The notes under the pieces were generated by a model. It saw nothing but the letters and a program-made list of their open reading frames with translations. It did no database searches and had not been told where the DNA came from. Made by a program: the position numbers and the translations under genes. Below are positions 19,800-46,694 of a DNA stretch of 64,000 bases, one piece after another; position 1 is the stretch's first letter, and every line of letters starts with the position of its first letter. This DNA comes from Streptomyces diastaticus subsp. diastaticus (lineage in GTDB: Bacteria > Actinomycetota > Actinomycetes > Streptomycetales > Streptomycetaceae), in the NCBI RefSeq assembly GCF_011170125.1, contig NZ_BLLN01000005.1, forward strand, positions 1,364,001 through 1,428,000. The letters are read 5' to 3'.

Positions 19800-20315
19800 G
19801 TGATCGTGGTCGATCTGCCAGAAGGATCGGCCCTCCAGATCGAGGCCCGTGCCCATGCCCGAGAAAGGGACGCCAGAACCGCCTCCCGGGCCTTGAAGGC
19901 TTCCGAGGACCTCCTGAGCCAGGCGGAAGCTTCCAGCGGCTCAGAGCCCGCCTGGATCGACTTCTATCACCACGCCCGCCTCTCCGCGGACGCCGCCGAG
20001 GTCTTCCGCCACCTGAAGAACCCCAAGGCGGCCCTGGCCTGGAACCAGCAGGCCGCCGCCATGCCGTCCGGCGTGTTCACCCGCTCGGTCGGGATGCGGC
20101 TGGCGATCGTGGGCACCGCCCACCTCCAGGCTCGCAACCTTGACCACGGCCTGGAACTCGGCAACCGGTCCGTGGACATCCTCGCGCGCGTCCAGTCCTC
20201 CCGGGCCAAGGACTACGTCCGCGAGTTCAACACCGCCCTCGCCCCATGGCGGCGCGAGCCGGCCGTCCGCGAGTTCATCCACCGCACCCGCACCGAACTC
20301 GGCGTCGCCGCCTGA
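19800..20315 (+). pseudogene. C-terminal fragment of a TPR-type Streptomyces regulator
   Basis: 171-aa open frame made of helical TPR-like repeats (AEVFRHLKNPKAALAWNQQA, MRLAIVGTAHLQARNLDHGL) and the tail YVREFNTALAPWRREPAVREF that typifies large Streptomyces HTH-TPR regulators of about 400 aa. The N-terminal HTH half is absent and the frame begins at a GTG with no clear RBS, about 205 bp after the right IS array. Most likely a remnant. Confidence 0.6.
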
Positions 20316-20322
20316 GCCAGTG

Positions 20323-21210
20323 AGCCTTTTCCATCCTCACTCCGAGCTGGTCAGATGCAGGGTGAGGATGGCTTGGACGAGGCTGGTGATCCGGGTGGTC
20401 GAGCACCGTAGCCTGCGGAGGAGTCGCCAGGACTTGAGGGTGGCGACGGCCTGTTCGACGAGGGCCCGGATCTTTGCGTGGGACCGGTTGACCGCCTGCT
20501 GGCCTGTGGAGAGGGTTTCCCACCGTCCCCAGCATGGGATGCGGACCGTGCCGCCGGTGCCTCGGTATGCCTTGTCGGCCCAGCATGGGACGTCTGCCTC
20601 GGCGAGGGCGTCGATGATCCCGTGTTCGCGGGCTGCGCGGATGTCGTGGACGGCGCCGGGCAGGGCGGGTGAGGCCCACAGCAGCCGGCCGAAGGGGTCG
20701 GCGAGGATCTGCACGTTCATCCCGTGCTTCTTGTGCTTGCCGGAGTAGAACGGCCGGTCCGCGGCGATGCGGTCGATGGGCAGGAGGGTGCCGTCCAGGA
20801 TCAGGTACGCCTTCGCCGATGCGGTCCGCACCGCGTCGGTCAGGCCGGGGGCGAGAGCGGCCAGGAGCTCGACCGCCTCGGTGACGTAGCGGTAGGCCGT
20901 CGTGGTGCCGATGCCGAACCCGGCCGCAAGCTGGGCGTAGGTGTGGCCCATCCGCAGATGGGCGAGGGTGAGCAGGGCCTGGCGGCCGGCGGTCAGGCAC
21001 CGCCACCGGGAGCCGATCGCGCGGCGGTGGCGCCGCAGCTGCTGCGTGAGGAAGCGGAGGGCGGAACTGGACACGTCGACACCCGACGGGTAAACAAGCA
21101 TGCGAAGCCTCTGGTGGAGACGGTTCTCTTGGTCGAAAACCCATCTACCAGGGGCTTCACCACCTTGTCAGCCCAACTGTGGTACTCCAGCAGCAGGTTG
21201 GAAAAGGCTC
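20323..21210 (-). mobile_element. IS5-family element (third type)
   Basis: Terminal repeats GAGCCTTTTCC and its complement, flanked by AGT on both sides as a 3-bp target duplication. It inserted just after the TPR fragment. Confidence 0.82.
20337..21101 (-). CDS. IS5-family transposase, intact single frame
   Basis: 254-aa DDE transposase (DDE_Tnp_4 type). It has an N-terminal HTH (MGHTYAQLAAGFGIGTTTAYRY), the first Asp in LILDGTLLPIDR, the second in CWADKAYRG and a C-terminal region with LVEQAVATLKSWRLLRRL, which supplies the Glu. No frameshift or stop. Confidence 0.92.
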   Translation of the reverse strand: MLVYPSGVDVSSSALRFLTQQLRRHRRAIGSRWRCLTAGRQALLTLAHLRMGHTYAQLAAGFGIGTTTAYRYVTEAVELLAALAPGLTDAVRTASAKAYLILDGTLLPIDRIAADRPFYSGKHKKHGMNVQILADPFGRLLWASPALPGAVHDIRAAREHGIIDALAEADVPCWADKAYRGTGGTVRIPCWGRWETLSTGQQAVNRSHAKIRALVEQAVATLKSWRLLRRLRCSTTRITSLVQAILTLHLTSSE

Positions 21211-21270
21211 AGTGCCTCCACGGCACGACGGCATCAGCCTCAACCCGACTGGATTGGAAACACCCGAGCT

Positions 21271-21564
21271 ATGCCTCAACTGCACCGCTTCGACAATGGC
21301 AGCAAGATCGGAAACGTCTCCCACGAACAGCTCAAGTTCCTCAACGACCACCTCATGGATGACACAGCCACGGAATTCTGCGTCAACAGCAACACCCTCA
21401 AGTGCCTCGCCGAGTTCGGGGCTGACCCGATGCTCATCGGCATGCTGGAGGATGCCCTCGGCCACGACTCCTGGATGGAGTTCACTTGGACGACCGACGG
21501 CCCGCCCACCCCGTGGATTCAGGTAGTGCCTGCCAAGCCCGGCCGCAGAACCCGCCGAGCTTGA
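21271..21564 (+). CDS. Small unknown protein, 97 aa
   Basis: The frame from ATG 21271 encodes an acidic protein (MPQLHRFDNGSKIGNVSHEQ start; helical middle with CLAEFGADPMLIGMLEDAL; basic tail PAKPGRRTRRA). A weak GGAAA lies upstream. Family not recognised. Coding-like codon use supports a real gene, but the neighbourhood is full of remnants. Confidence 0.5.
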   Translation: MPQLHRFDNGSKIGNVSHEQLKFLNDHLMDDTATEFCVNSNTLKCLAEFGADPMLIGMLEDALGHDSWMEFTWTTDGPPTPWIQVVPAKPGRRTRRA

Positions 21565-21572
21565 CGCGGGGC

Positions 21573-21619
21573 CGCGAATTCATCCACCGCACCCATACCG
21601 GACTTGGCATCGTCGCCTG
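21573..21619 (+). pseudogene. Second remnant of a TPR-regulator C-terminus
   Basis: Encodes EFIHRTHTGLGIVA and a stop, nearly the same as the EFIHRTRTELGVAA end at 20272-20315. Only the tail is present, so this is debris of a second copy or of a duplication. Confidence 0.45.
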
Positions 21620-21675
21620 ACGCACCCACTTGGACGACCCGCACCGGTGTCACACGGGCCCGATAGAGTGTCGAC

Positions 21676-22572
21676 GTGGACTCATTGGGCGGTGCGATTT
21701 CGACGAGAGCCGGCCTGGCGTCGTCGTTCTCGGTGGCCGAAGCTCAGCGATTGATGGCCGCAGTGCCAGCGCCCGTAGCCAACGACGTCTGGCGGGCACG
21801 ATGCACTGCCATGCACGGGCACTTCACCCGCCTCGACCACATCGGCAAGCAGCCGGTAGTTCATAGGGCTCCCGAGGAGCAGGTGTGTCTGCTCCGGTCG
21901 ATGGCAAGGTGCGTGCAGGACCCTAACTTCGCGGAGATGTGCCTGGAGCTCGCGATTCAAGTGGAGGCGGCCGAGGACAGGTTGGCCGGACTTGGTAGGG
22001 CCGATGAAGCTGTTGCCATCCGATCCTTGATGATCGGCCAGGCGATGGAGTGGGTGGTCCACGTCTGGCGTCTGGCCGACCAGATAGACGATCTGCGAGC
22101 CCGACAGAAGGCGTGGAGCAAGGGCCACCACCGTGTGGCCCGTGTGCTGAAGTCCGCCCGCATACCGCTGTGGGTCGTGGGTGTGCTGGAAGACATCTCC
22201 CACGATGAACTCCGGACGATGACTCCCGGTGACTTGGTCCGCCGCGCGGGCCTTGGGAACGTCTGGATTGCGGAGGCGGCGCAGGTACTCGACCGCCTGC
22301 GAGCCCTCGCCTTGCTCGGTGTCGACCTCGCGGACTGGAACGAGCTACTGGACCAGCTCGCCACGTGTCTCGACGCTGATAAGAATCTTCCGGCATCACG
22401 GGTCGGGAATGTGGATGTGCCGCCTCGACCGTGCGGTCCACCAGGCGGGCTTGTGCTGACGGAACCCCGCGTGCCGCGAGCACCGGGCTGTGCGGTCCCT
22501 CGTCGGATCACCACGCATGGCCGCCGTCTGCTGCACCAGGACGGAAGGTGCGGAGGGCACCTGACCGCGTAG
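21676..22572 (+). CDS. Unknown protein, 298 aa
   Basis: GTG start at 21676 without a Shine-Dalgarno but with TAGAGT eight bases upstream, as in leaderless Streptomyces transcripts. Residues 1-170 are helical and rich in W/H. Residues about 170-215 (HDELRTMTPGDLVRRAGLGN) resemble a helix-hairpin-helix DNA-binding motif like that of the RNA polymerase alpha C-terminal domain. The last about 60 residues are P/R/G-rich and look like out-of-frame translation, so a frameshift near 22390 is possible. Function unknown. Confidence 0.5.
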   Translation: MDSLGGAISTRAGLASSFSVAEAQRLMAAVPAPVANDVWRARCTAMHGHFTRLDHIGKQPVVHRAPEEQVCLLRSMARCVQDPNFAEMCLELAIQVEAAEDRLAGLGRADEAVAIRSLMIGQAMEWVVHVWRLADQIDDLRARQKAWSKGHHRVARVLKSARIPLWVVGVLEDISHDELRTMTPGDLVRRAGLGNVWIAEAAQVLDRLRALALLGVDLADWNELLDQLATCLDADKNLPASRVGNVDVPPRPCGPPGGLVLTEPRVPRAPGCAVPRRITTHGRRLLHQDGRCGGHLTA

Positions 22573-22609
22573 CGGCGGATCGGTCCTGCTCGACCCATGG
22601 GGACCGAAG

Positions 22610-22801
22610 ATGAATCTCAGCGACGCTCTGGGTGCGATGTCTGCCATCGCTGGCGTTGGCTCGTTCGTGCTTCAGATCCGCGGCGACCGTCGCAAAAGGC
22701 GCGAGGCTGACGCCGATCGACCGGACATTCACCAGGGCTCTGGGGCCTCGACCGACACGCCTCCGGACGAGGCGGTTGAGTCGTCGGACAACGATGAGTG
22801 A
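22610..22801 (+). CDS. Small membrane-anchored-like protein, 63 aa
   Basis: The ATG at 22610 follows GGGGACC. A short hydrophobic N-terminus (LGAMSAIAGVGSFVLQI), then a basic stop-transfer (RGDRRKRR) and an acidic tail (ESSDNDE). A strong terminator starts 10 bp after the stop. No family recognised. Confidence 0.5.
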   Translation: MNLSDALGAMSAIAGVGSFVLQIRGDRRKRREADADRPDIHQGSGASTDTPPDEAVESSDNDE

Positions 22802-22810
22802 GTAAACGAC

Positions 22811-22840
22811 CGGGGCGCCTGCCTTGCGGCAGGCGCCCCG
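22811..22840. terminator. Strong hairpin terminator
   Basis: Perfect 13-bp stem CGGGGCGCCTGCC with TTGC loop, between the small protein and the convergent AlbA-type gene. Confidence 0.85.
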
Positions 22841-22914
22841 ATTCCGCGTGTCCACGGCGGATGCGTTGAGCTCGCCCTGCCCCCGTGGGCCCGCGCGAGT
22901 GGGCCGAAGGGTTC

Positions 22915-24213
22915 TCAGGTCGGCAGCATCTCCAGACCGAACTGGTGCAGCAGCCCTTCGGCAAGGTCGGTGGCACCCGCTGTGAGCGCTTGATCGCCGG
23001 CGAACGGCGCCAGGTCGCTGTAAGCCGGCTGCACACTGCGTGGCTGCCGTGCCAATTCGGCCACCTCGGGGCGCCCGTGATCGAGGACTACGGGGGCGAA
23101 GCGGAGTCCGCTGCCAGGCTGGGTCTGCAGAACGGCCCGCAGCTCGACGGGACTGTCCGCGCGCAGCGCCAGGCGGTGCTCGTCTGCCAGAGCGATGGTC
23201 TCGAAGACCGCGCTGATCAGCGTCGCCAAGGACACCGGCAGCGGAACTTCTGGGTGACTAGGCGGCAGGGCGTGGTGGGAGACGTCGACGGCGGTGACGA
23301 CTGTGCCGTCGTGATGCAGCTCCACCAATATGCCGCGCTGGCGGGTGACACGGGCCGGGACCAGCATGTTGGTATCCACCCAGCGGCGCAGACCCTTACG
23401 CGGACTGTTGGCCAGGAGATGAGAGAAGAGCTGCGGGCCCAGCAGCCGCGGCATCGGGATAGCGCTGGCGAGCAGGCGCTCCGCCCGCTTCGCGCTTCGC
23501 GACATGACTCCCTGCACCTCAGACCGTGACAGGGCAGGGACCATCCGCGGGATGGGCCGTGAGGGATGTGCCACAACGATCAGCCACGCGGCCTGGACCT
23601 CCGACTCCCCGAGGACGAGGTCAGTGGTGTTCCGGAGGTGCTGTTCCACGGCTGCTTCGGCGGTCTGCTGGCGGGTGAAGCGGCCGCGGTAAGCGAGCGC
23701 GATCTGGTGTTCGGCCATGTAGTCGGTGTCGTCGCGGTGACGGTAGGGCGCATTGAAGGTGGTCTTGTCCTTGTCCTTCTGCTGCCATCCGTAGAGGAAG
23801 TGCGGTGCCATCTCGCTGGCCGGGACGTCAACGACCAGGGTGTCCTTGCCGCTGCCGTCGGTCGCCGGGAGCTTGAGATAGCTCACGCCGCTCACGGTGG
23901 GTTGCAGATGGACGCGCAGCCACTGGCCGAGCTGCTTGTCGTTAACCTGATTCAGGTCAACGCCGACCATGTCCACTGTGTCACTCACACCGTAGACGAG
24001 GAGACCGCCGCGGGTGTTCGCCATGGCGGCGACGTCCTTGGCGAACTCGTTCCATTGGCCTGGAACTGGTGAGACGGGCGGGAGGGCCTCCTTCCAGTCC
24101 AGGTCGTCACTCTCGCCGAGCTTGCGCTGTACGGCCTCGGCGACCATTTCGTACGTCACCGGCCCCGGCGGCTGGCCGAGGTACTCGTGTAGCCGGGTCC
24201 ATGAACGTGCCAT
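22915..24213 (-). CDS. AlbA_2/Schlafen-type ATP-binding protein
   Basis: 432 aa. Residues about 30-185 form an AlbA_2 (divergent AAA-4, Schlafen-like) domain: an acidic start ESDDLDWKEAL, FAKDVAAMANTRGGLLVYGV, and VVDVPASEMAPHFLYG with a substrate-type loop. The C-terminal half (after about 200) is unrecognised and predicted mixed helix/strand. Proteins with this domain occur as stand-alone genes in defense and mobile islands and may bind or cut nucleic acid. It lies between IS debris and a terminator, apparently monocistronic. A defense role is inferred from neighbourhood. Confidence 0.75.
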   Translation of the reverse strand: MARSWTRLHEYLGQPPGPVTYEMVAEAVQRKLGESDDLDWKEALPPVSPVPGQWNEFAKDVAAMANTRGGLLVYGVSDTVDMVGVDLNQVNDKQLGQWLRVHLQPTVSGVSYLKLPATDGSGKDTLVVDVPASEMAPHFLYGWQQKDKDKTTFNAPYRHRDDTDYMAEHQIALAYRGRFTRQQTAEAAVEQHLRNTTDLVLGESEVQAAWLIVVAHPSRPIPRMVPALSRSEVQGVMSRSAKRAERLLASAIPMPRLLGPQLFSHLLANSPRKGLRRWVDTNMLVPARVTRQRGILVELHHDGTVVTAVDVSHHALPPSHPEVPLPVSLATLISAVFETIALADEHRLALRADSPVELRAVLQTQPGSGLRFAPVVLDHGRPEVAELARQPRSVQPAYSDLAPFAGDQALTAGATDLAEGLLHQFGLEMLPT

Positions 24214-24284
24214 CCAGACAGCCTAGTTGCCCAGGCGGCAGGCAGCTCCGGGTTCCGACAGGAGCGCACGGCCGATGGCACGGG

Positions 24285-24460
24285 CGTTTCTCGCGCGCGA
24301 CACCCGGTGGACCCACGACCTCACCGCGACCCGCGCCCACGGCATCATCCAAGCGTGCCTGACCCGGCAGATCCTCGTCCTTGCCGACCGGGTCTACCAG
24401 GGTGCCGGCGCCACCGTCCGCACCCCCTACTACCATCATCACGAACAGCCCGAGCACTAG
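24285..24460 (+). pseudogene. IS5-family transposase remnant, 5' part, interrupted by ISL3 element
   Basis: Encodes WTHDLTATRAHGIIQACLTR and DRVYQGAGATVRTPYYHHHE, matching the second-Asp region of the transposase at 20337-21101 type elements. It continues at 26252 after the ISL3 insertion. The N-terminal two thirds are missing. Confidence 0.7.
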
Positions 24461-26246
24461 TGTCGGCGTACGAGCTGAAGTGGCCCTGGCAAGATTTTCG
24501 TAATGCTGGGATGTGCGACTGTGCGCCGGTGACGCTCCGTCATGGGTAGCGGCAGTGTCGACCAGTGTGATGACCTCATATGGATCATGTCTCCGCACCT
24601 CGATGCGGTGCGGGTGGAACGGGTATGGGTGGCGGGAGGCGTAGTCCGCATCGAGGCCCGCACTCGCGAGTTGTCGGTGGCGTGTCCGGACTGCGGTCGC
24701 GGCTCCGCGCGGGTGCACAGCCGCTACCGCCGCGCGCTGGCCGATGTTGCTGTGGGTGGCCGGCCGGTGGTCATCGAGCTGTCGGTGCGACGGTTGTTCT
24801 GTGACGGCCCGAGCTGCGGTCGGCGGACGTTCGCCGAGCAGGTCGAAGGGCTGACGGCGCGCTACCAGCGCCGCAGCCCGCTGCTGCAGCACCTGGTGGA
24901 GATGGCCGGAGTGCTCCTCGCCGGCCGTGGCGGCGCCCGGCTCCTGCGAATCCTGCAGGTACCGCTGTCGCGGACCAGCGTGCTGTTCCACTTGATGCGC
25001 CTGCCCCTTCCGCCGGCAGCGACCCCGCGGGTGTTGGGCGTGGACGACTTCGCGCTGTACGCGGACGTCTACGGAACCCTGCTGGTGGATGCCGACACCC
25101 GGCTGCCGATCGAGCTGTGGGCCGGCCGCGACGCCGAGCAATTGGCCACCTGGCTGCGGACGCACCCCGGTGTTGACGTCGCCTGCCGGGACGGCTCGCT
25201 GGTCTACCGACAGGGCATCGCCGACGGCGCCCCCAACGCGGTGCAGGTCAGCGACCGCTTCCACCTGTGGCAGGGCCTGTCGAAGCGGGTCGGCGATGTT
25301 GCCGCGGCCCACCGAGGATGCTTGTCCGCTGCGGTCCCGGAGCCCGAAGCTACATCACCGCCAACGAGCCCGGCGGCACCGTCCGACGAAGCCGACACCC
25401 CCGCCCGCCGCCACGCGAAGCGGCTGTTCGAGGCGGTGCACGCGGTGACCGACACTGGCCGCTCACTCAACTCGGCAGCCCGTGAGCTGGGCCTGAACCG
25501 CCGCACCGTGGGCAAGTACGCCCGGGCCGCCACCTGGCAGGAATGCGTACGCCGGATCCCGCCTCGTCGGCCCACGAGTCTTGATCCATACCTGGACTAT
25601 CTGAGGCAGCGCTGGGAGGAGGGCGAGCACACCGCGACGGTGCTGCACCAGGAGATCTCCGCCAAGGGCTACGGCGGCCACTACCAACGGGTCAAGATGG
25701 CCATCGCACCATTACGCCGCGGCCTGCCGATCGACACCCCACGCGAGCGACCACCCTCACCCCGCCAGGTCACCCGCTGGATCACCACCGCACCATCCCG
25801 ACGCGACCTCCACACCACCGAGGCCCTCCGACGGCGCCTCACCCACTGCCCGGAACTGGCACGAACCCACGACCTGGTCCGTCAGTTCGCCGCCATGCTC
25901 GACGCCCATAACGCCCGCCCGCTGGCGCACTGGCTCGAGCAACTGTCCGACGCCGGCCTCCCGGCCCTGGCCGGCCTGGCCAACGCCATCCGCGAGGACC
26001 AGCCCGCGGTCGTGCAGGGCATCACCACACCGTTCAACTCCGGTGTCAACGAAGGCCGCATCACCGACCTGAAACTCCAGAAACGGATCATGGCCGGCCG
26101 CGCAGGTGTCCCTCTGCTCCGCCACCGTGTCATCCTTATGGCCCTGCTCCGACGCCGCTACGGGTGACGGAGCGTCACCGGCGCACGGTCGCACACCCCA
26201 GCATCACGAAAATCTTGCCAGGGCCACGTTCACGTGTACGCCGACA
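24461..26246 (+). mobile_element. ISL3-family element
   Basis: Terminal inverted repeats begin TGTCGGCGTAC and include the strongly conserved TGGCCCTGGCAAGATTTTC; the complementary right end is at about 26165-26246. ACTAG flanks both sides (24456-24460 and 26247-26251), shorter than the 8 bp common in this family. It inserted into the IS5 transposase remnant. Confidence 0.85.
24542..26167 (+). CDS. ISL3-family transposase
   Basis: 541 aa. N-terminal zinc finger CPDCG and CDGPSCGRRTF, an HTH near residue 310-330 (SAARELGLNRRTVGKYAR), and the DDE core with LGVDDFALYADVYG, VSDRFHLWQ and SGVNEGRITDLK. An internal ATG at 24587 (MSPHLDAVRVERV) is an alternative start. Intact. Confidence 0.92.
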   Translation: MGSGSVDQCDDLIWIMSPHLDAVRVERVWVAGGVVRIEARTRELSVACPDCGRGSARVHSRYRRALADVAVGGRPVVIELSVRRLFCDGPSCGRRTFAEQVEGLTARYQRRSPLLQHLVEMAGVLLAGRGGARLLRILQVPLSRTSVLFHLMRLPLPPAATPRVLGVDDFALYADVYGTLLVDADTRLPIELWAGRDAEQLATWLRTHPGVDVACRDGSLVYRQGIADGAPNAVQVSDRFHLWQGLSKRVGDVAAAHRGCLSAAVPEPEATSPPTSPAAPSDEADTPARRHAKRLFEAVHAVTDTGRSLNSAARELGLNRRTVGKYARAATWQECVRRIPPRRPTSLDPYLDYLRQRWEEGEHTATVLHQEISAKGYGGHYQRVKMAIAPLRRGLPIDTPRERPPSPRQVTRWITTAPSRRDLHTTEALRRRLTHCPELARTHDLVRQFAAMLDAHNARPLAHWLEQLSDAGLPALAGLANAIREDQPAVVQGITTPFNSGVNEGRITDLKLQKRIMAGRAGVPLLRHRVILMALLRRRYG

Positions 26247-26251
26247 ACTAG

Positions 26252-26425
26252 CAGCAGTTCAACCGGGACCAAGCTCGGCTGCGGGCTCCCGGCGAGCGTG
26301 CCATCACACAGCTGAAGTCCTGGCGACTGTTACGGCGAGCCCGATGCTCAACCCGGCGTATCGGCACCGCCATCCAAGCCATCCACACCCTTTTGACCTG
26401 CGACTATTCAGGATGAAAGAGATTC
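26252..26425 (+). pseudogene. IS5-family transposase remnant, 3' part
   Basis: Encodes QQFNRDQARLRAPGERAITQ and LKSWRLLRRARCSTRRIG, then a stop. It continues the remnant ending at 24460. With one ACTAG copy removed, the joint reads EH-stop-QQFN, so an amber codon was probably already present before the ISL3 insertion. Confidence 0.7.
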
Positions 26426-26452
26426 AGTGAGCCAACAGGCGTTCTGACCGGT

Positions 26453-26482
26453 CTTGTGTCACGGCCGTCGCCGTGACACAAG
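26453..26482. promoter_or_regulatory. 12-bp inverted repeat upstream of the Mod-Shedu gene
   Basis: CTTGTGTCACGG and its exact complement are separated by 6 bp, 50 bp before the start at 26533. There is no T-run after it, so an operator is at least as likely as a terminator. Confidence 0.5.
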
Positions 26483-26532
26483 GTGATCGATTTACGATGC
26501 CCTACACAGGACCATAACCCTAAGCTGATCAG

Positions 26533-28317
26533 ATGGCGGACAACCTGCTCATCCATGGCGGCAACGAGAACGCCCTTCGTACCCTGAAGGACACCGGTCA
26601 GTATCGAGGCAGGGTCAAGTCGGCATATCTGCTACCGCCGTGGGACACGCAATGGGGGTTCGAGCACTACGACGCTCCTGGCCGCGCGTCCTGGCTCGGC
26701 ATGATGCAGGTACATCTGCGTCAGGTGCGCGACCTGCTCGCCCCTGACGGTTCAGTGTGGCTGCACGTCGACGACCGGCAGTTCGCTGACTGCCGTGTGC
26801 TCATGAACAAGGTCTACGGCCGGTCGAACTTCCTATCTACAGTCGTCGTTCAGAAGCCTGCACGGAACGGCTCCCGTCACTTCACGGTCAGCCACGACTA
26901 CCTACTTGTCTTCGCGAAAGACGCCTCGACCTGGCGGCCGAACCCTCTCCCTCGTGCAGCCGAGTCAGAGCCGACCTTCCGCAACCCTGACAACGATCCC
27001 CGCGGGCCGTGGCGAGCAGCCGACCTGTCCTCCCCCGTTCTTCGTGAGGACCTGCGCTACGAAGTGGTAGGTCCGTTCGGCACGGCCATACAGCCACCTG
27101 CCCGCCGTTCTTGGCGATTCACCCAGCAGCGTTTCGATGAACTCGATCGCGACGGACGTATCGCATGGTCGCCCGACGGCCGTCCGAAGCTGAAGCTCTA
27201 TCTATCGGAGGCCCCTGACAAACTGCCCTCCACGGTGTGGAGTCCGGACGACGTGGGGACAAGTTTCCAAGCGGGTCAGCACCTGCGCGGACTGCTCAAG
27301 GACATGTACCAGCCGGCTCCACCGCCGGAGCAACTGCTGCGACACATTCTCACGATCGCTACCAACCCCGGTGACCTTGTGTTCGACTACTTCGGCGACT
27401 CGGGCACGGCTGCTGCGGTCGCGCACAAAATTGGCCGCCACTGGCTCGCTGTCGACAGCGAGTCTCGCGTCGTCCGAGACCGTCTGGACAAAGTGATCAA
27501 CGGTAACGACTCGGGCGGCATCACACATGAAGTGAACTGGATAGGCGGCGGTCACTATGACGTGATTGCCGCGGCGAGACCAGACGAAGCATCCGGGCCC
27601 TCTGATTCGGGCGCCGACGAACATGTGCGAATTCAGGTCGTCACTTATCGGAAAGACGGGAGCGTCGTTCCCGCATTGGACTCGACCGAGAGGGACCACC
27701 GATCGGCCGAGCTAAAGGTCATCAGGCAACGCCGCGAACTGCTGCAGGAGCTTCGGGAGGTCGTCAGCGACAGGAGTGCACCGGAAGCCACAGTTCAACG
27801 GATAATCGGACGCAATCACTGGATCTTCGGAGGTGAGTACACAGAAGCCTCGGAACGACGTGACCTGTTGCCCCTCGACCAGCATGACATTCTTCTCGTG
27901 CGCGCTGACCGCAGCGTTCACGTCGTCGAACTCAAGAAGCCCGGCGCTGCACTTGTCAGGTGGCACCGCAACAGCCTGATCGTGTCAAACGAGGTGCACG
28001 AGGCGGTGAGTCAATGCAGGAACTACGTTCAGAAAATGGATGACGTGGGAGCGACACTGGAAACAATCCACCGCAACACACTTGACCTTGAGTACGATTA
28101 CCTGCGCACACGGGGAACTGTTGTGGTTGGGAATCCTGATCACGTGGAGCTACCTGGAGTCACTCAGCAGATGGTCGCCCGTACCATCCGTTCCTTCAAC
28201 ATGGACCAGAGTCGCGTGCAAGTACTCACCTACTTGGATCTGATCGAACGCGCGGAAGAAGCACTCCGCTTTATCGAGGACGACCTCGAAGCTCCTGGTA
28301 TCGAGAGCGCGCCCTGA
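26533..28317 (+). CDS. Fusion of type III Mod-like methyltransferase domain with Shedu (DUF4263) nuclease
   Basis: 594 aa. Residues 1-330 follow type III Mod / N6-adenine methyltransferases closely: NLLIHGGNENALRTL, HVDDRQFADCRVLMN, FRNPDNDPRGPWRAADL, LFDYFGDSGTAAAVAHKIGR. The catalytic (D/N/S)PP(Y/F/W) tetrad reads LPPW (SAYLLPPWDTQWGFEHYD), and the FxGxG motif reads YFGDSG. Residues about 430-594 match the Shedu SduA domain: NHWIFGGEYTE, then DILLVRADRSVHVVELKKP, the PD-(D/E)xK core with D..ExK intact, and NEVHEAVSQCRNYV. The start ATG has no RBS and may be leaderless. It stands alone between IS debris. Likely anti-phage; sensing by the altered methylase domain is inferred. Confidence 0.85.
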   Translation: MADNLLIHGGNENALRTLKDTGQYRGRVKSAYLLPPWDTQWGFEHYDAPGRASWLGMMQVHLRQVRDLLAPDGSVWLHVDDRQFADCRVLMNKVYGRSNFLSTVVVQKPARNGSRHFTVSHDYLLVFAKDASTWRPNPLPRAAESEPTFRNPDNDPRGPWRAADLSSPVLREDLRYEVVGPFGTAIQPPARRSWRFTQQRFDELDRDGRIAWSPDGRPKLKLYLSEAPDKLPSTVWSPDDVGTSFQAGQHLRGLLKDMYQPAPPPEQLLRHILTIATNPGDLVFDYFGDSGTAAAVAHKIGRHWLAVDSESRVVRDRLDKVINGNDSGGITHEVNWIGGGHYDVIAAARPDEASGPSDSGADEHVRIQVVTYRKDGSVVPALDSTERDHRSAELKVIRQRRELLQELREVVSDRSAPEATVQRIIGRNHWIFGGEYTEASERRDLLPLDQHDILLVRADRSVHVVELKKPGAALVRWHRNSLIVSNEVHEAVSQCRNYVQKMDDVGATLETIHRNTLDLEYDYLRTRGTVVVGNPDHVELPGVTQQMVARTIRSFNMDQSRVQVLTYLDLIERAEEALRFIEDDLEAPGIESAP

Positions 28318-28374
28318 TGGGGTAAACGCTGGTCTCTCTGGCAGACGAGTCGATGCACTCTCAGGCCGCCTGAG

Positions 28375-28523
28375 GGCTGTTCCGTAACTCAGGGCGAAGG
28401 CCGGCGCGTCACCACAGGAAGATCCGTTTGTCCGGTGCGCCTTGACTCGCGGCCTCATCTGGAGCCGGGCCATGCAGGTCGAACCGGGCACTGGCAGGCG
28501 GTATCTGGAGTTACGGGACAGCC
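28375..28523. mobile_element. 149-bp MITE-like element
   Basis: 16-bp terminal inverted repeats (GGCTGTTCCGTAACTC and GAGTTACGGGACAGCC, one mismatch) bound a non-coding 117-bp centre. The size and ends fit a non-autonomous element mobilised by an IS with the same ends, none of which is in this window. Confidence 0.6.
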
Positions 28524-28527
28524 TTTG

Positions 28528-29398
28528 AAGGGTGTTGCAGAAGGCCGTGAACTGGGCATCTCCATTGTATGGCTGGGGTGTTGAGGGCCGAGCGGGTGTG
28601 GGTGGAGACGTTCACGGGGCTGCGGGTCGATCGATTCGGTCGGCTGCTGAAAGCAGTCCGGGAGCGTGGTGGCGAGGGATGTGGCTGGGGTCGTCCGTGG
28701 CGGCTTCCGCTGGCCGAGCGGGTGCTGCTGGTGGCGGTGTACTACCGCACGAACCTCACCATGCGACAGCTCGCCCCGCTCTTCGGTATCTCGCCCGCGA
28801 CCGTGTGCCGAGTGATCCAAAGGCTCGGCCCGATGCTCGCACTCGAGCCGGCCCGGGCCTGCGCCGATGCCACCGACCGGCTGTGGATTGTCGACGGCAC
28901 CCTCGTCCCGGTCCGCGACCGCAAGGTCGGAGCATCCTCCCGAAACTACCGGTTCTCGGCGAACGTGCAGGTCATCGTGGACGCCGAGACACGTCTGGTG
29001 GTGGCGACCGCCCGTCCGGTGCCCGGCAACACGGCGGACGCGAAAGCCTGGCGGGACTCCGGCCTGGCCGCACACTGCGAGGGCGTGACGGTCCTCGGCG
29101 ACGGCGCCTACATCAACACCGGACTGATCGTCCCGCACCGCAAACGCCCCGGACGATCCCTGCTCAAGGGCGAGGAAGAAGAACAACGCGCAGCATCGCA
29201 AGGTCCGCGCCCGTGTCGAGCACACCTTCTCCCGCATGAAGAACTACAAGATCCTCCGCGACTGCCGGCAACGCGGCGACGGCCTCCACCACGCCGTCCA
29301 GGCCGTCGCTCGCATGCACAACCTCGCCCTCGCCGCATGATCACACACGCCCGAGCACCGCTCCGACCTGCGTGATCACGGCCTTCTGCAACACCCTT
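28528..29398 (+). mobile_element. IS5-family element (fourth type)
   Basis: Terminal repeats AAGGGTGTTGCAGAAGGCC and its complement. No certain target duplication. It abuts the MITE by 4 bp. Confidence 0.82.
28569..29340 (+). CDS. IS5-family (DDE_Tnp_4) transposase, frameshifted
   Basis: The N-terminal frame holds NLTMRQLAPLFGISPATVCR (HTH), LWIVDGTLVPVRDRK (first Asp) and VLGDGAYINTGL (second Asp). At about 29171-29180 (GAGGAAGAAGAAC) reading must shift to recover KVRARVEHTFSRMKNYKIL (Glu region) and the stop at 29340. Either programmed frameshifting or an inactivating indel. Confidence 0.82.
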
Positions 29399-29450
29399 TA
29401 GACACCTCTCTCAACGGCACTGGTGAACCGCCCCGGGTTCGGTAGAGACC

Positions 29451-30323
29451 TCAGATTGTGGTGGTGACCTGGGGTTTCGTGAGTTCCGTGTAGTAGTTGG
29501 TCTCGTACTCGACGGGTGGGACGTGGCCTATCTCACCGTGCAGTCGGCGGTGGCAGTACCAGTCGACCCACTCGGCGGTGGCCAGCTCGACCTGGGAGAG
29601 GGTCTTCCAGGGCCGCTGCGGCTTGATCAATTCGGTTTTGAACAGGCCGATCGTGCTCTCCATCAGGGCGTTGTCGTACGCATCGCCGACAGATCCGATC
29701 GAGGCCGCGATGCCGGCCGCGTCCAGGTGTTCGGCCAGCCGGAAACTGGTGTACTGGCTCCCCGCGTCGCTGTGATGTATCAACTCGCCGCGAACATGGG
29801 GGTGTTCATCGCGGTCGCGCTGCCACAGTGCCATCTCCAGAGCGTCCAGGACGAGCTGGGTCTCCTTCGACGTCGCGGCGGACCAGCCGACGATCCGGCG
29901 GGAGAAGGTGTCCACGACGAAGGCCACGTAGACCACCCCGGCCCAGGTCGCCACGTGCGTGAAATCCGCGACCCAGCAGCGATTCGGCGCGCCGGCGACG
30001 AAGTCGCGGTCCACCCGGTCCGGGGCCCGCTCGGCCTGGTGGTCCGGAATCGTGGTGAGGACCCTCTTGCCGCGGACCGCGCCGGCGATGCCCAGCTCGC
30101 GCATCAGCCGTTCGACGGTGCAGCGGGCCACCGCGTGACCCTGCCGGTTCAGCTCCCGCCAGATCTTCCGGGCCCCGTAGACACGGTAGTTGTCGGTGTG
30201 GACCTGGCGGATCCGCTCCTTGAGTTCCGCGTCCCGCACGGAACGGGCAGACGGGACGGCCAGGCGTTTCTTGTGCGCGTAATAGGTGGAAGGGGCGATC
30301 TTGCAGTCGTGCTCGGTGAGCAT
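29451..30323 (-). CDS. IS3 transposase OrfB (integrase core)
   Basis: 290 aa from the internal ATG, but the frame stays open upstream (HTLVAFIDEHRDRFGG), so the active product is an OrfAB fusion made by frameshifting near the end of OrfA. rve-type DDE: WVADFTHVATWAG, HHSDAGSQYTS, DNALMESTIGLFKTELI. Confidence 0.9.
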   Translation of the reverse strand: MLTEHDCKIAPSTYYAHKKRLAVPSARSVRDAELKERIRQVHTDNYRVYGARKIWRELNRQGHAVARCTVERLMRELGIAGAVRGKRVLTTIPDHQAERAPDRVDRDFVAGAPNRCWVADFTHVATWAGVVYVAFVVDTFSRRIVGWSAATSKETQLVLDALEMALWQRDRDEHPHVRGELIHHSDAGSQYTSFRLAEHLDAAGIAASIGSVGDAYDNALMESTIGLFKTELIKPQRPWKTLSQVELATAEWVDWYCHRRLHGEIGHVPPVEYETNYYTELTKPQVTTTI

Positions 30324-30376
30324 CCTGCAGATCGGCTCGACGCCGCCGAAGCGGTCCCGGTGCTCGTCGATGAACG

Positions 30377-30703
30377 CTACGAGCGTGTGTGTGGCCGGTC
30401 GAGCTCGGCCGCGAAGAAACTCGCTGCCGCCTTCAGGATCTCGTTCGCCCTCTTCAGCTCGGCGTTCTCCTTCTTCAATGCCTTGAGCTGGGCGGACTCC
30501 TCCGTCGTCGTTCCCGGCCGCGTCCCCGCGTCGATCTCGTGCTGCTTCACCCAGTTCCGCAGCGTCTCGCGGGACCCGATGCCGAGCTTGTCGGTGACCG
30601 CCTGCAGAGCGGCCGTCTCGTTCGGGTGGTCGTCGCGCACCTCGGCGACCATGCGCACCGCGCGACGGCGCAGCTCAAGCGGGTAACGGGAAGGTCGTGC
30701 CAT
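30377..30703 (-). CDS. IS3 transposase OrfA (HTH)
   Basis: 108 aa. HTH_Tnp_1 domain (RYPLELRRRAVRMVAE, GIGSRETLRNWVKQHE) and a leucine-zipper-like segment (LKALKKENAELKRANEILK). It precedes and overlaps the OrfB frame. Confidence 0.9.
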   Translation of the reverse strand: MARPSRYPLELRRRAVRMVAEVRDDHPNETAALQAVTDKLGIGSRETLRNWVKQHEIDAGTRPGTTTEESAQLKALKKENAELKRANEILKAAASFFAAELDRPHTRS

Positions 30704-30838
30704 GACTCGATCCTTTCATGAAATCGAGTCTCCATTCGAACCGGGGCGGTTCACTGGAGCCCTGTCCGTTGCCTACGGTCCCGCCGTCACCCGTCCGGGG
30801 GCCGCCCTGAAAACCCTCATTGACCACGAAAAGTCTCA

Positions 30839-30867
30839 AGGCAGGGCGGTCCTCAACCGCCCTGCCT
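30839..30867 (-). terminator. Terminator after the DndB-like gene
   Basis: Stem GGCAGGGCGG / CCGCCCTGCC, loop TCCTCAA. On the minus strand it is followed by a T-rich tract (TTGAGACTTTT), 12 bp after the stop at 30880. Confidence 0.8.
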
Positions 30868-30879
30868 CCAGTGCATGGC

Positions 30880-32187
30880 CTAGCTCTGCTCGGTTGCGAT
30901 GGGCAGCCGTCGCGCCAGTTCCTCGGCCGTGACCGGGTAGCGCTCGTTCTTCACCTGGCGGTACGTCCGAATGGCGCGGTCGATCTGCGCACGCGATGCC
31001 GGCGCAAGATGCACAAGCAGCAACTCGTACAGCGCTTGGTTGTTCTCCTTGGCCGGGATCATCTTGCCCTTACGGGAACCGTCCGGGGTCTCTTGCCAGA
31101 CTGCAGAGAACGGCGCGGAAGTCATCTTCCAGTCCAGCTCACCGAGGCGCCGAAGGAGTTCCGGCCAATCCAGCAGACCCTGCTCGATGATGTGCCGGGC
31201 AGCCCGGACAACTTGCACCTGGACCGCGGGGCGCATGAATGGGTGCCCGTCTCCATCCCGCCCCTTGGGCGCACGGAGATCCTTGGGCGCCGCGTGCGCC
31301 TCATAGCGCTCCCGCATGCCGCCGCAGGCGGCAAGCAACTCGTCAATGCGCTTGGCGAGCGCCTCGTAGCTCTCGTCCAGGATGTCGTCCGTGGCCCGCT
31401 GGGACGTCTTGTTCATGCTCTCGTGCAGGCCGAAGCCGAGGTCCGTGAGCAGGTCGTACAGGACGCCGATCGTCGTCCAGGCGGTGCCCGTAACGCCCAC
31501 CTGACGGGTAGCGAGCTTGAGTTCACCGTCATTGCCGACCTTGCTGAAGACCTGAACCACGCCGTCCTGCCGCAGGAATTCGTGGTCATCCAGCAGCCGA
31601 CGGGTAAGAATCGCAAAGCCGTCGTCCTCATCGAGGGCGATGTTCTCCTGCGCGGTCGTCTTGACGGCGTTGCGGTTGATGTTGGTGAAGAGCCTGCGGG
31701 TCCGCCTACGGCCTGCTTCGTCATCGAAGTGGGGAACGACGATGACAGTGATGTCTTCACGCCCGAGTTCCGGGTTGCGCTTGACTGCGTCCTTGATCGC
31801 CTTGAGGCGGTGCTGGCCGTCCAACGCGAAGAACTGGTGGGTGCCGTCGAAGGTGAGTACGCCGAAGTTGCGGTCCATACCCGCGAGTACGTCCCCGTTC
31901 TCGGAGTTCTTCTCCATTTCCAGCGGGAGGTACTCCGGCGCCCCTCCCCACGCTGCCACGATGATGGCTCCGAGGAAGCGGTTCTCGTTGGTCAGGAGGT
32001 AGTTGGTGATTTCAGTGGTGCGTGTGCCGACGCCCCTTTGAATCATGGTGCCCAGGTCCTGATTGCCACCCAGCTCATGCGCGAAGTTGATCTCACGGGC
32101 TACTGCCGCGTAGCTCATGAGACATGAGTAGTAGGTCCAGTTACCCACCTTCGCTTCGAACGCGGGAACGAACGTCTTGGACGGCAT
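30880..32187 (-). CDS. dndB: DndB-like DGQHR-domain protein
   Basis: 435 aa. The signature FALDGQHRLKAIKDAVK lies near residue 120. LFTNINRNAVKTTAQEN near 170 is typical of the DGQHR/DndB family. ATG 32187 has AAGAGG upstream and follows the GIY-YIG gene after 27 bp. In dnd systems DndB represses or tunes phosphorothioation and binds modified DNA. Here it accompanies Ssp-type rather than Dnd-type modification genes, which is unusual; DndB symbol is by family resemblance. Confidence 0.8.
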   Translation of the reverse strand: MPSKTFVPAFEAKVGNWTYYSCLMSYAAVAREINFAHELGGNQDLGTMIQRGVGTRTTEITNYLLTNENRFLGAIIVAAWGGAPEYLPLEMEKNSENGDVLAGMDRNFGVLTFDGTHQFFALDGQHRLKAIKDAVKRNPELGREDITVIVVPHFDDEAGRRRTRRLFTNINRNAVKTTAQENIALDEDDGFAILTRRLLDDHEFLRQDGVVQVFSKVGNDGELKLATRQVGVTGTAWTTIGVLYDLLTDLGFGLHESMNKTSQRATDDILDESYEALAKRIDELLAACGGMRERYEAHAAPKDLRAPKGRDGDGHPFMRPAVQVQVVRAARHIIEQGLLDWPELLRRLGELDWKMTSAPFSAVWQETPDGSRKGKMIPAKENNQALYELLLVHLAPASRAQIDRAIRTYRQVKNERYPVTAEELARRLPIATEQS

Positions 32188-32214
32188 GGATACCTCTTCT
32201 TCGTGCGGTAGTGA

Positions 32215-32835
32215 TCAGGATGTCCAGGCTGCTCGCGGAGCACCGAGCCGACCGCGCAGCTTGGGACGATCCGATTCGTTAAGTGGGGGGTTCCACAGAC
32301 GGATGAGCCGCTTCTCCAGCCCCCTGATCCTGTGACGATCCGCCACTGTGGTGCACCAGAACTCCATCGGGCGCAGCGGCAGGTAGCGGCTGAGCCGTTG
32401 CTCACGGGTCCTCGGTTCGCTCTCGGTCCACAGACTCTCGGGATTGGCCCGCAGGTACCGCCGGTACTCTTTGTAACGCTGGCGAATGGTGTTCCCGTCG
32501 TCCGACTTCGAGGCGCCAGCCTGCCCAACGTAGAGGAGTTGGGGGAAGCTGCCGTGAGAGGGACGGCTGTCGACCTGAAACTGGAACTGAGGCCGCCAGA
32601 CGAACATGTACAGGCCGGGCTCATCCGGGAGAGCAGGGGCAAGGTTCTCCGTAGCCTGATGGACCTCCCAGGGTGAGGCGAATTCTCGTAAGTCCTGGTC
32701 AAGTTGCTGACAGCTGTCCGCGTCCAGCATCCGAAGCAGGCCGACCTCGATGGGAAGCGCGGGGCTGTCTTCCTCGCGGTGCCTTTGCACCATACGGGTG
32801 AAGGCGTCTCGGCCGGTCGTGCTGGAAACTGACAT
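32215..32835 (-). CDS. GIY-YIG nuclease-like protein
   Basis: 206 aa. The GIY motif reads EPGLYMF and the YIG motif LLYVGQAG. The conserved Arg lies in IRQRYKEYRR, and the catalytic Glu and Asn in LEKRLIRLWNPPLN. ATG 32835 follows a G-run (GGGGGG); the frame is open a little further upstream. It forms a two-gene unit with the DndB-like gene, after the terminator that once closed the ssp operon. A restriction nuclease acting on (un)modified DNA is a reasonable inference; the target is unknown. Confidence 0.8.
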   Translation of the reverse strand: MSVSSTTGRDAFTRMVQRHREEDSPALPIEVGLLRMLDADSCQQLDQDLREFASPWEVHQATENLAPALPDEPGLYMFVWRPQFQFQVDSRPSHGSFPQLLYVGQAGASKSDDGNTIRQRYKEYRRYLRANPESLWTESEPRTREQRLSRYLPLRPMEFWCTTVADRHRIRGLEKRLIRLWNPPLNESDRPKLRGRLGAPRAAWTS

Positions 32836-32871
32836 GCGGATAGACCCCCCGTACACGGCTCAGCGGCTCTG

Positions 32872-32915
32872 GCATACCCAGTGTGACAGGCGGGACTGAC
32901 AATCCTTCAGGGAAC
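32872..32915 (-). promoter_or_regulatory. Putative promoter/operator of the GIY-YIG-dndB unit
   Basis: On the minus strand, TTGTCAGT followed by a TGTCAC half with 8 bp between the TGTCA units, then GGGTAT 17 bp after TTGTCA. The same element precedes the gene at 48462-49313 (20 of 24 positions identical). Confidence 0.55.
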
Positions 32916-32922
32916 CCCGAAG

Positions 32923-32967
32923 GCAGAGGCCCGCCTCGCGGAAAACCTCCGCGAGGCGGGCCTCTGC
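32923..32967. terminator. Terminator originally following sspD
   Basis: 19-bp perfect stem GCAGAGGCCCGCCTCGCGG with a 7-nt loop. It lies between the IS5/IS481 pair and the GIY-YIG gene, so the IS elements landed between the sspD stop and its terminator. Confidence 0.85.
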
Positions 32968-32980
32968 ACGGCTGGGCTAG

Positions 32981-33877
32981 GCAGTTTCGTTTGGATCATC
33001 GGGTGGACCAGAGGAAGATGCCCGCGACGTGGAGTCCGGCCAGGTAGATGGTGGCGGTTTTCTCGTAGCGGGTGGCGATGCCTCGCCACTGTTTGAGGCG
33101 GTTGATGCACCGCTCGACGGTGTTGCGCTGTTTGTAGGTCTCGCGGTCGAAGGCTGGTGGTCTGCCGCCTCGGCTGCCTCGGCGGAGCCGGTGGCGGCGT
33201 TGGTCTGCGGGGACGGGGATCACGGCCCGGATGCCGCGCTTGCGCAGGTGTTCGCGGATGGCGCGGGAGGAGTATGCCTTGTCGGCGAGGACCACGTCCG
33301 GCCTGGTGCGGGGTCGTCCTCGCCGACGGGGGACCCGCAGGCGGGCCATGACCTCGGGAAAGGCAGGTGCGTCACCGGCCTGTCCGGCGGTGAGGACGAA
33401 CGCGAGGGGCCGGCAGCGGGCATCGGCGGCGAGGTGGATCTTCGTGGTCAGTCCGCCGCGGGAACGGCCGATGGCGTGGTCGCCGGGTTCGCCGGCCGGG
33501 GCCCCTTTTTACGGGCCCCGGCCGCGTGCTGGTGGGCCCGCACGATCGTGGAGTCGACCGAGACGGCCCAGCTGACGTCCTCGTCGGCGTCGGCCTGGGC
33601 CACCAAGGCGGTGAAAACCCGCTCCCAGGTGCCGTCGACGGCCCACATCCGCAGCCGGTTGTAGACACCCCGCCAGTTGCCGTACTTCTCCGGCAGGTGC
33701 ACCCACTGCGTACCGGTCTGGAACTTGTAGGCGATCGCGTCGATCACCTCACGATGGTCACGCCAGCGGCCACCCCGCTTCGGCGTCCGGTCCGGGAGCA
33801 ACGGCTCGATCCGCGCCCACTGCGCGTCAGTCAACGGCACACCCGGACCAACGACCAACTGATCCAAACGAAACGGC
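32981..33877 (-). mobile_element. IS5-family element (fifth type)
   Basis: Ends GCAGTTTCGTTTGGATCA / GCCGTTTCGTTTGGATCA (read inward), flanked by CTAG at 32977-32980 and 33878-33881. The right CTAG is shared with the IS481 element. Confidence 0.88.
32996..33867 (-). CDS. IS5-family transposase, frameshifted fusion
   Basis: The N-terminal frame (33867 to about 33510) holds LTDAQWARIEPLLPD, REVIDAIAYKFQTGTQWVHL and SVDSTIVRAHQHAAG. The frame changes at AAAAAGGGGC (33502-33511, minus strand) to one with PDVVLADKAYSSRAIREHL and RNTVERCINRLKQWR, ending at 32996. Confidence 0.9.
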
Positions 33878-34915
33878 CTAGGTGTATTGCCCTGTGAGGT
33901 TGGGGACGCGGCTGGCGGGTGGTTGCCCTTTCAGCGCGGTGTGTCCGCGGTGGTGATTGTAGGTGTGCAGCCATTGCGGGAACGCTTGGCGGCGCTCGGC
34001 TTCTGACCGGTAGGGGCGTGCGTAGGCCCACTCGTCCAGCAGGGTGCGGTTGAAGCGTTCGACCTTGCCGTTCGTCTGGGGCCGGTAGGGCCGGGTCCGC
34101 TTGTGGGCGATCCCGGTCGCTGCCAGGGCATCGCGCCAGTCGCGTGAGCGGTAGCAGGAGCCGTTGTCGGTCAGTACCCGTTCGACGGAGATCCCGGCCT
34201 GGGTGAAGAAGGTGTGGGCCCGCTGCCAGAAGGCGGTGGCGGTCTCCTTCTTCTCGTCCGCGTGGATCTCGCTGTAGGCGAGGCGGGAGTGGTCGTCGAC
34301 GGCGGTGTGCAGGTAGCTGTAGCCGAGGTTGGGACGGCCGTGGACGGCGCGGGGCCGGGCGGGGTCGCGGTGCGCGGAGCTGTTGCGGCCGCCCTGAGCC
34401 CTGCCATGGACCTTGTGTCCGCCGCCGTCGGGGATGTTGCCCAGTTTCTTGATGTCGACGTGGACGAGTTCGCCGGGCCTGGCGCGTTCGTAGCGGCGCA
34501 CCACGCGGCCGGTGGTCCGGTCGAGATGCGACAGGCGGGCCAGGCGGTAGCGGGTGAGCACGCGGTGCACGGTCGAGGGCACCAGGTGCAGGAAGTGCGC
34601 GATGCGGGCCGGTCCCCACCGGCGCAGCAGACGGACCTTGATGATCCGCCGCTCGGTACGGGTGGGAGTGCGGCCCGGGCTCGTGCGTGGGCGGCTGGAG
34701 CGGTCGGCCATGCCGGCTTCCCCCAGGCGGCGGTAGCGGTCGGCCCACCGCTGGGCGGTGGTGGGCGAGACCTGGAAGCGTTCGGCGGCCCGGCGCAGGG
34801 GCCAGCCGTCCTCGACCACGCAACGGGCCAGGCGCAGCCGTCCGGTCTCGGTCAGGGGTGCATTACGGTGGGGCACGAGGGCCTTTCTGGTTGGTGTAGA
34901 CGTCGCAATCCACAC
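33878..34915 (-). CDS. IS481-family transposase
   Basis: 345 aa. N-terminal HTH (GWPLRRAAERFQVSPTTAQRW), second HTH (GPARIAHFLHLVPSTVHRVL) and rve DDE core: LVHVDIKKLGNI, LTDNGSCYRSRDW, KVERFNRTLLDEW. The TAG stop is formed from the CTAG target duplication at the element edge (33878-33880), so the gene relies on its insertion site for termination. Confidence 0.93.
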   Translation of the reverse strand: MWIATSTPTRKALVPHRNAPLTETGRLRLARCVVEDGWPLRRAAERFQVSPTTAQRWADRYRRLGEAGMADRSSRPRTSPGRTPTRTERRIIKVRLLRRWGPARIAHFLHLVPSTVHRVLTRYRLARLSHLDRTTGRVVRRYERARPGELVHVDIKKLGNIPDGGGHKVHGRAQGGRNSSAHRDPARPRAVHGRPNLGYSYLHTAVDDHSRLAYSEIHADEKKETATAFWQRAHTFFTQAGISVERVLTDNGSCYRSRDWRDALAATGIAHKRTRPYRPQTNGKVERFNRTLLDEWAYARPYRSEAERRQAFPQWLHTYNHHRGHTALKGQPPASRVPNLTGQYT

Positions 34916-34995
34916 CGAACCGGAAGGCCCTCACCCGTTCAAGATCCCTCGGCCGAGACCTGTCTCACCGTTCACAACCTCCCCGGACAGAACAG
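33882..34995 (-). mobile_element. IS481-family element
   Basis: Flanked by CTAG at 33878-33881 and 34996-34999. Ends share TGT..TG and GAGGTTG stretches. Inserted 15 bp beyond the sspD stop and directly abutting an IS5 element. Confidence 0.88.
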
Positions 34996-35014
34996 CTAGG
35001 TGGCTGGGTGCTCG

Positions 35015-40532: not shown

Positions 40533-40591
40533 CCGGGACCTCTCTGTGTCCAATGCGATTGCTCTAACGACGTTGATAAACGGGGTAACGG

Positions 40592-41767: not shown

Positions 41768-41807
41768 CGTCTGCCACCTCACCTCGCTCGTGTCGCACAC
41801 CAATGTA

Positions 41808-41851
41808 CTGCTGGTGGAAAGCTCGCCCCGCATCCGGGGTTCCACCAGCAG
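41808..41851. promoter_or_regulatory. 12-bp inverted repeat at the sspA promoter
   Basis: CTGCTGGTGGAA and its complement enclose CCCCG/CGGGG, with a TACATT -10-like hexamer just downstream on the minus strand. It can be an operator for the ssp operon or a leader hairpin. Confidence 0.6.
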
Positions 41852-42224
41852 CTCGCCGTGATCCTATCCGCGAGCCTAGATCCACTCTTTGAATCACTCG
41901 AACGCGTGGTGTCGTAAGCCGCTATCGAATGCATGTTCTATGTTGCACGCCTCGCGCGCGGGCGCACGCTGCAAGCTCCGTTTCGGTGGCCGGGAAGTCG
42001 GGCAGCTGCGTGGCCAATTGCCGCCCCTGGCTGGGCTTTTAGTCTGATGGTGCTCCTGTTGTCAGTGGTCCCGTTTAGGGTGGTCCGCACGCTGCAACGC
42101 CGCAGATCTGCACGTTGAAGCGCTGCTTGGTGTGCGTCGAGCTGGGGGAGGAACTTCACGATGTTGGTCGGTCCTGTGCGAGCGGCTCACGGCTTGCCGT
42201 CAGCCGCATCGGTCAGGTGAGGCT
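41852..42224. promoter_or_regulatory. Divergent control region between ssp operon and helicase operon
   Basis: About 370 bp without a supported gene. On the plus strand TTGTCAGTGGTCCCG near 42060 resembles the start of the shared TTGTCAGT element seen upstream of two other genes in the locus. Confidence 0.5.
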
Positions 42225-46620: not shown

Positions 46621-46694
46621 GATCACAGCCACGGCGTCGCCTGCCAGCGCACTGCCGACGAACACGAGCACAGGGTGATGGGGAAGGCCGTCTC

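Follow-up and report, generated by a model that had tools for sequence, protein, structure and literature searches.

The window, a stretch of 64,000 nucleotides from Streptomyces diastaticus subsp. diastaticus, contains a gene in which a methylase of the type III Mod kind is joined to a Shedu nuclease in one reading frame. The features of this gene are as follows.

26533-28317, plus strand: pseudo-Mod-Shedu fusion gene, a single ORF of 594 aa
26533-27567, plus strand: pseudo-Mod, residues 1-345, folded as a beta-class methylase of type III
26632-26643, plus strand: broken catalytic tetrad LPPW, residues 34-37 (DPPF or DPPY in 183/183 sampled canonical relatives)
26896-27279, plus strand: target-recognition-like segment, residues 122-249, with 19/19 Mod-conserved positions kept within borders set post hoc
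27388-27405, plus strand: degenerate FxGxG motif YFGDSG, residues 286-291, its second Gly replaced by Asp in 12/13 fusions
27568-27687, plus strand: linker, residues 346-385, mostly of low confidence in the predicted model
27688-28290, plus strand: Shedu (SduA_C/DUF4263) PD-(D/E)xK nuclease, residues 386-586
27886-27888, plus strand: nuclease Asp452, present in 39/39 Shedu domains compared
27928-27936, plus strand: nuclease ExK, E466-L-K468, with E and K in 39/39 Shedu domains compared
28012-28014, plus strand: nuclease Gln494, present in 39/39 Shedu domains compared

HMM searches and the fold agree on the two domains: in the structure model residues 1-349 are type III Mod-like and ~386-583 are Shedu nuclease-like, PF14082 scores 50.5 bits on the C-terminus against a curated cut-off of 27, and PADLOC matches the protein to SduA (E 1e-44). 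The original prediction of a 594-aa Mod-Shedu fusion, carrying an LPPW tetrad and a YFGDSG motif beside intact nuclease residues (D452, E466, K468 and Q494) and a C-terminus recognizable as DUF4263, is borne out on each of these points. The SduA_C score above cut-off, the modeled nuclease fold and the intact PD-(D/E)xK residues place the protein among the Shedu nucleases, and some members of its family already bear the names of Shedu SduA-domain or methyltransferase proteins in public sources. The G+C content of the gene is 0.606 versus 0.686 for the window, which fits lateral transfer.

The gene lies in an IS-rich region. A Pfam search of 19 window ORFs, including 32215-32856 (126 ORFs of at least 150 aa are listed, many overlapping), finds transposases on both sides of the fusion gene, and IS elements crowd the locus. 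Two 169-aa ORFs, 12407-12916 (minus strand) and 18738-19247 (plus strand), look identical over their first 130 residues; they probably represent a single transposase-like gene present twice, in opposite orientations. The same region encodes a Schlafen AlbA_2 domain protein (22915-24213, minus strand, E 7e-11). At 26453-26482, 50 bases upstream of the fusion start, two perfectly complementary 13-nt arms enclose a 4-nt loop; this inverted repeat may be an operator or a hairpin. A search allowing up to 3 mismatches finds its inner 28 bases nowhere else in the source genome, and no copy is seen within 150 bases upstream of the gene's second copy, described below. Rfam at gathering scores returned nothing for 20000-35000, and a promoter and terminator scan of 26150-28600 returned no site. 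Further downstream are a DGQHR/DndB-family protein (30880-32187, minus strand, E 5.5e-25), an adjoining 213-aa protein (32215-32856) with a weak, below-cut-off GIY-YIG match, and a phosphorothioate SspABCD cluster on the minus strand (35015-41845).

35015-35848, minus strand: SspD
35845-39423, minus strand: SspC
within 39420-40937, minus strand: SspB (DUF4007), the match starting only at residue 148
40592-41845, minus strand: SspA-like cysteine desulfurase

Given the late start of the SspB match and the overlap with the SspA ORF, the called SspB start is probably too early. Divergent from this cluster, at 42132-47342 (plus strand), lie three genes: one for a ResIII-type helicase, one for a GHKL ATPase protein that also matches MzaB (E 1.7e-14), and one for a protein whose PLD-like match is below cut-off; these are possibly further defence genes.

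Twelve further proteins have the same fusion, at 73-87% identity, giving a family of 13 of which 12 are full-length; one member, P0007, is the protein listed for Kitasatospora cineracea. The original prediction had called for a survey of homologues for the LPPW change. Where type III Mods have the catalytic tetrad (D/N/S)PP(Y/F/W) and the SAM-binding FxGxG, the window's protein has LPPW and FGDSG, and a canonical DPPY is not universal among its relatives: the 12 fusions covering the tetrad have RPPW (7) or LPPW, RSPW, RPPH, RPMW and RPPG (1 each), with Asp in 0/12. Three pseudo-Mods outside the Shedu fusions have APPW (P0015), HPPY (P0016) and HPPF (P0021), so that a tetrad without D/N/S is found in 15/15 covering pseudo-Mods; the site is uncovered in P0013 and P0019, and P0002, identical to P0001, is excluded from the tetrad and conserved-position counts. 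The tetrad is DPPF or DPPY in all 183 canonical Mods sampled, which were drawn from two match lists, of 1376 and 2984, by taking the top 120 of each.

The losses extend beyond the tetrad. Asp10, Asp34 (tetrad), Phe260, Thr262, Lys264 and Gly289 (FxGxG), named by what we take to be the beta-class motif scheme, are each conserved in at least 99.5% of the sampled canonical Mods and are lost in most fusions; P0005 is the one fusion that retains the second FxGxG Gly. Overall, canonical Mods share 93 positions at a conservation of at least 93%, and the fusions have lost 26 of them, versus 0/93 in a control of 13 hand-picked actinobacterial canonical Mods. By stretch, the lost positions number 9/21 in residues 1-61, 7/15 in 62-121, 0/19 in 122-249, 9/27 in 250-310 and 1/11 in 311-345. 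The fusions are also without the extension that canonical Mods have at the N-terminus (median 55 aa) and without their C-terminal region (median 139 aa). At the level of sequence, loss of methylase residues in the fusion lineage is certain, and the pattern supports a methylase part whose loss of catalysis is a trait of the lineage.

The retained scaffold could still serve as a SAM or SAH sensor, its pocket binding SAM until phage-induced SAM depletion frees the nuclease. The change at position 308, Glu to Asp, is conservative, and P0005 keeps its FxGxG Gly; however, the six residues named above are gone from most fusions, and this reading is improbable. SAM sensing, one of the two roles first proposed for the methylase part, is therefore disfavoured, the catalytic and cofactor motif residues being among those lost, whereas the broader proposal of a recognition or sensing module that gates a Shedu nuclease holds as the best reading. 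Loss of catalytic and cofactor residues from a scaffold that is kept points to a DNA-recognition module.

Residues 122-249, presumably the target-recognition domain given the beta-class motif order that we assume, escape these losses. The longest unbroken run of kept positions, 19 from residue 122 to 242, falls inside this segment, and a run of 19 is reached in 455 of 20000 shuffles in a border-free test (p ~0.02). The borders were chosen after the data were viewed, and six alternative borders were run along with the border-free test; the Fisher p is 0.0012 for 122-249, 0.02 for 131-255, 0.05 for 115-255, 0.28 for 110-260 and 0.80 for 105-265, with lost positions 118 and 250 just beyond the 122-249 borders. 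These comparisons lend moderate support to the idea that the recognition segment was preferentially kept, and the kept positions may be structural. Because of this sensitivity to borders, the best reading is held slightly less firmly, and the bait, SAM-sensing and heteromer readings become slightly more likely. Residues 131-255 are also the fastest-evolving part of the protein between the two copies compared (dN/dS 0.43 by NG86, 0.78 by YN00).

The kept positions of this segment are also compatible with a modification reader, in which the pseudo-Mod recognizes modified phage DNA in the manner of a type IV system and licenses the nuclease. Such a reader would need no host methylase of this fold, and replacement of the Asp by Arg could adapt the base pocket to a modified base. 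Arg is not invariant at this site, however, and the window's own protein has Leu, which leaves this a rather doubtful alternative.

Comparison of the window copy with one in a second genus (G185) provides evidence that the gene is maintained. The dN/dS is 0.25 overall (NG86; 0.31 by YN00), with separate values of 0.32 (Mod part) and 0.175 (nuclease); by these ratios the fusion gene is under purifying selection. A decaying pseudogene or a sequencing error is thus contradicted by the open second-genus copy and by the overall dN/dS. The crowding of IS elements and P0015, which from its sequence seems truncated and frame-shifted, would suit decay, but the 13 fusion proteins, nearly all full-length, and the low ratio in the nuclease make it very improbable.

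The fusion is rare in the genomes sampled. It occurs in 2 of 394 genomes of the family sample, one being the source genome, in 1 of 394 of the class sample (query P0016; again the source genome), and as an open copy in 1 of 70 genomes of the second-genus sample, which is G185 again; the samples overlap and yield two distinct fusion genomes in all. A contig scan of genomes gave 11 loci with no match past query residue 352 and no fusion, using two short peptide patterns only, by which fusions can be missed. Viral contigs gave 2 weak Mod relatives, and none of 14 plasmid records (E 1e-60) or 19 phage records (E 1e-20) covers 80% of the query.

Neither host appears to supply a partner methylase of this fold. 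PF01555 (N6_N4_Mtase) matches once in the source genome and once in G185, in each case the fusion gene itself, so that an active Mod of this family is found in neither of the two hosts and a partner methylase of the same fold is rejected. PF02384-type N6 methylases (3 matches in the source genome, 1 in G185) and ResIII-type helicases (20 and 19) are present, and unlinked partners of other kinds are possible. No res gene adjoins the mod part among the window ORFs scanned; a ResIII-domain helicase (42132-43850, PF04851 E 2.4e-18) lies 13.8 kb downstream and is a possible partner. At the second locus (L017), translations read by eye likewise show flanking transposases and no adjoining Mod or Res gene. 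Phosphorothioate was considered as a required self mark and rejected: SspABCD is encoded in the window, yet the second host has no DUF4007/SspB match.

Type III Mods are described as dimers with unequal subunits (PMC4005696). By analogy, the fusion protein could pair, as an inactive subunit, with an active Mod or with a Res helicase encoded elsewhere in the host. The window helicase and the many ResIII-type matches in both genomes would provide candidates. Against this, there is no second PF01555 protein in either host, the best PADLOC match of the window helicase is PbeA with REase_III absent among its 14 PADLOC matches, and the second copy, by the translations read by eye, has no Mod or Res gene beside it; a heteromer is accordingly quite unlikely.

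The pseudo-Mod is found on a second kind of nuclease. P0016, P0019 and P0021 (798-852 aa) have the same pseudo-Mod with a C-terminus that matches REase_III (E 1.3e-14, 9.9e-14 and 4.7e-11, respectively) in place of Shedu; PDF and ExK residues are visible in 3/3, and two of the three cover the tetrad, both with His as its first residue. In a tree of 60 Mod domains, 43 of them hand-picked from the sampled canonical Mods, the 17 pseudo-Mods lie on one side of a branch of length 0.63 (support 100/100), and within this clade the Shedu-fused (99/90) and Res-fused (98/91) groups separate.

The nuclease, in turn, is found with a second kind of module. The nearest Shedu domains outside the family, in P0202-P0212 (43-55% identity), follow an N-terminal XhoI domain; PF04555 is listed in 11/11, and the five that were scanned match it at E 4.4e-26 to 2.3e-17. 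The ExK of what we take to be the catalytic PD-(D/E)xK motif of XhoI is broken in 10 of these 11, the Asp preceding it is kept in all 11, and P0202 alone is intact (EFK). A further XhoI-Shedu (L040, genome G1044), read by eye, also has a broken ExK, for a total of 11/12, whereas ExK is intact in 3/3 standalone XhoI proteins examined (of 5 standalone XhoI-like matches). These proteins thus resemble the fusion in their nuclease and in an N-terminal domain from a restriction-modification enzyme, and differ in the origin of their module, a type II restriction endonuclease rather than a methylase. In a nuclease tree of 38 proteins (13 fusions and P0202-P0226, with P0002 and the partial P0227 left out) plus the G607 protein, drawn with a midpoint root for display only, the pseudo-Mod fusions (100/100) are nested within the XhoI-Shedu group as sister to P0202 (96/92). 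The simplest account of this nesting is that a pseudo-Mod replaced the XhoI module on the nuclease. In a wider pattern, dead type III Mod and dead type II XhoI would stand in for one another as recognition modules within a single actinobacterial Shedu lineage. The intact ExK of P0202, the closest XhoI-Shedu, opposes a strict rule that the module be dead. Other members of the nuclease tree have different N-terminal regions, and the G607 protein (L025, 1498-3348, minus strand), a 617-aa Shedu near the XhoI-Shedu group, has SduA_C as its sole Pfam match, with no Pfam family at E 0.01 over its N-terminal ~400 residues.

Two unrelated restriction-modification enzymes, each catalytically dead on the same nuclease lineage, also recall an integrated decoy. 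Phage anti-restriction proteins include DNA mimics that bind restriction-modification enzymes, and the dead Mod or XhoI could be a bait whose binding by such proteins releases the Shedu nuclease. A bait would account for a DNA-binding scaffold kept without catalysis, and would make a self-protection methylase unnecessary, as the lack of other PF01555 proteins in both hosts would allow. However, the surface bound by such inhibitors would be the DNA surface, so sequence cannot separate bait from DNA recognition; we regard a decoy as possible but unlikely. With dead Mod joined to both Shedu and Res nucleases and dead XhoI joined to Shedu, there is about an even chance that restriction-modification enzymes have repeatedly been made into dead recognition modules of single-gene nucleases, which as reader or bait would allow restriction free of methylation.

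Single-gene Shedu proteins with varied N-terminal regulatory or enzymatic domains are a described class, type I-D, as cited in PMC12137116, and the Mod fold gives the fusion the enzyme-derived N-terminal domain of that class. The suggestion that the architecture was undescribed does not hold to this extent: a single gene, a variable N-terminal domain before the PD-(D/E)xK nuclease and intact nuclease residues are common to Shedu type I and I-D. What stands is the proposed role of a dead Mod or dead XhoI as a Shedu module, of which no description was found in a search conducted mostly without subscription journals and hence weak as evidence of absence. In VcSduA the N-terminal domain is a GHKL ATPase whose residue E27 is needed, and its authors offer control of the nuclease by this domain as a hypothesis (PMC12137116), whereas the N-terminal domain here is a type III Mod predicted to be dead. 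EcSduA (8ps4/8ps5) has an N-terminal clamp that binds DNA ends and relieves autoinhibition (PMC12904381), where the fusion has a Mod instead, and B. cereus Shedu (8ti9) likewise differs from the fusion, whose N-terminal half matches Mod. Relative to the type III Mods EcoP15I (4zcf, 6k0w) and Mbo45V (7dsu), the fusion is without the tetrad, the cofactor motifs, the N-terminal extension and the C-terminal region, and it alone has a fused nuclease.

We therefore favour, with a probability of about 0.5, a solitary single-gene Shedu-type defence nuclease gated by a dead Mod that acts as its DNA-recognition module. The N-terminal half would be a former type III Mod that has shed its catalytic and cofactor-pocket residues and kept its scaffold and recognition-segment positions. 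This half may read DNA, by sequence, modification state or both, and would keep the C-terminal nuclease silent until the right DNA is engaged; DNA binding, gating, anti-phage activity and discrimination of self from non-self are all inferred from sequence. Recognition seems separable from methylation, since type III enzymes cleave without a requirement for SAM, which can modulate cleavage, and a Mod dimer binds only one site (PMC4005696). The retained scaffold, together with the EcSduA clamp and the VcSduA hypothesis, suggests by analogy that the pseudo-Mod forms a DNA-dependent gate on the nuclease, and inactive nuclease or ATPase domains of defence proteins in general have been proposed as sensors (PMC12839542).

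If the nuclease is sequence-specific, the host genome should be cut for want of a protecting methylase, which counts against this gated-nuclease reading. Dependence on DNA ends, as reported for EcSduA, is a candidate means by which host DNA could be spared. Two questions become testable with the fusion: which signals the varied N-terminal domains of Shedu proteins respond to, and how a single-gene, DNA-reading nuclease leaves its own genome uncut when no methylase protects it. If the favoured reading is true, defence nucleases would gain specificity by taking over entire restriction-modification enzymes and abolishing their catalytic activity.
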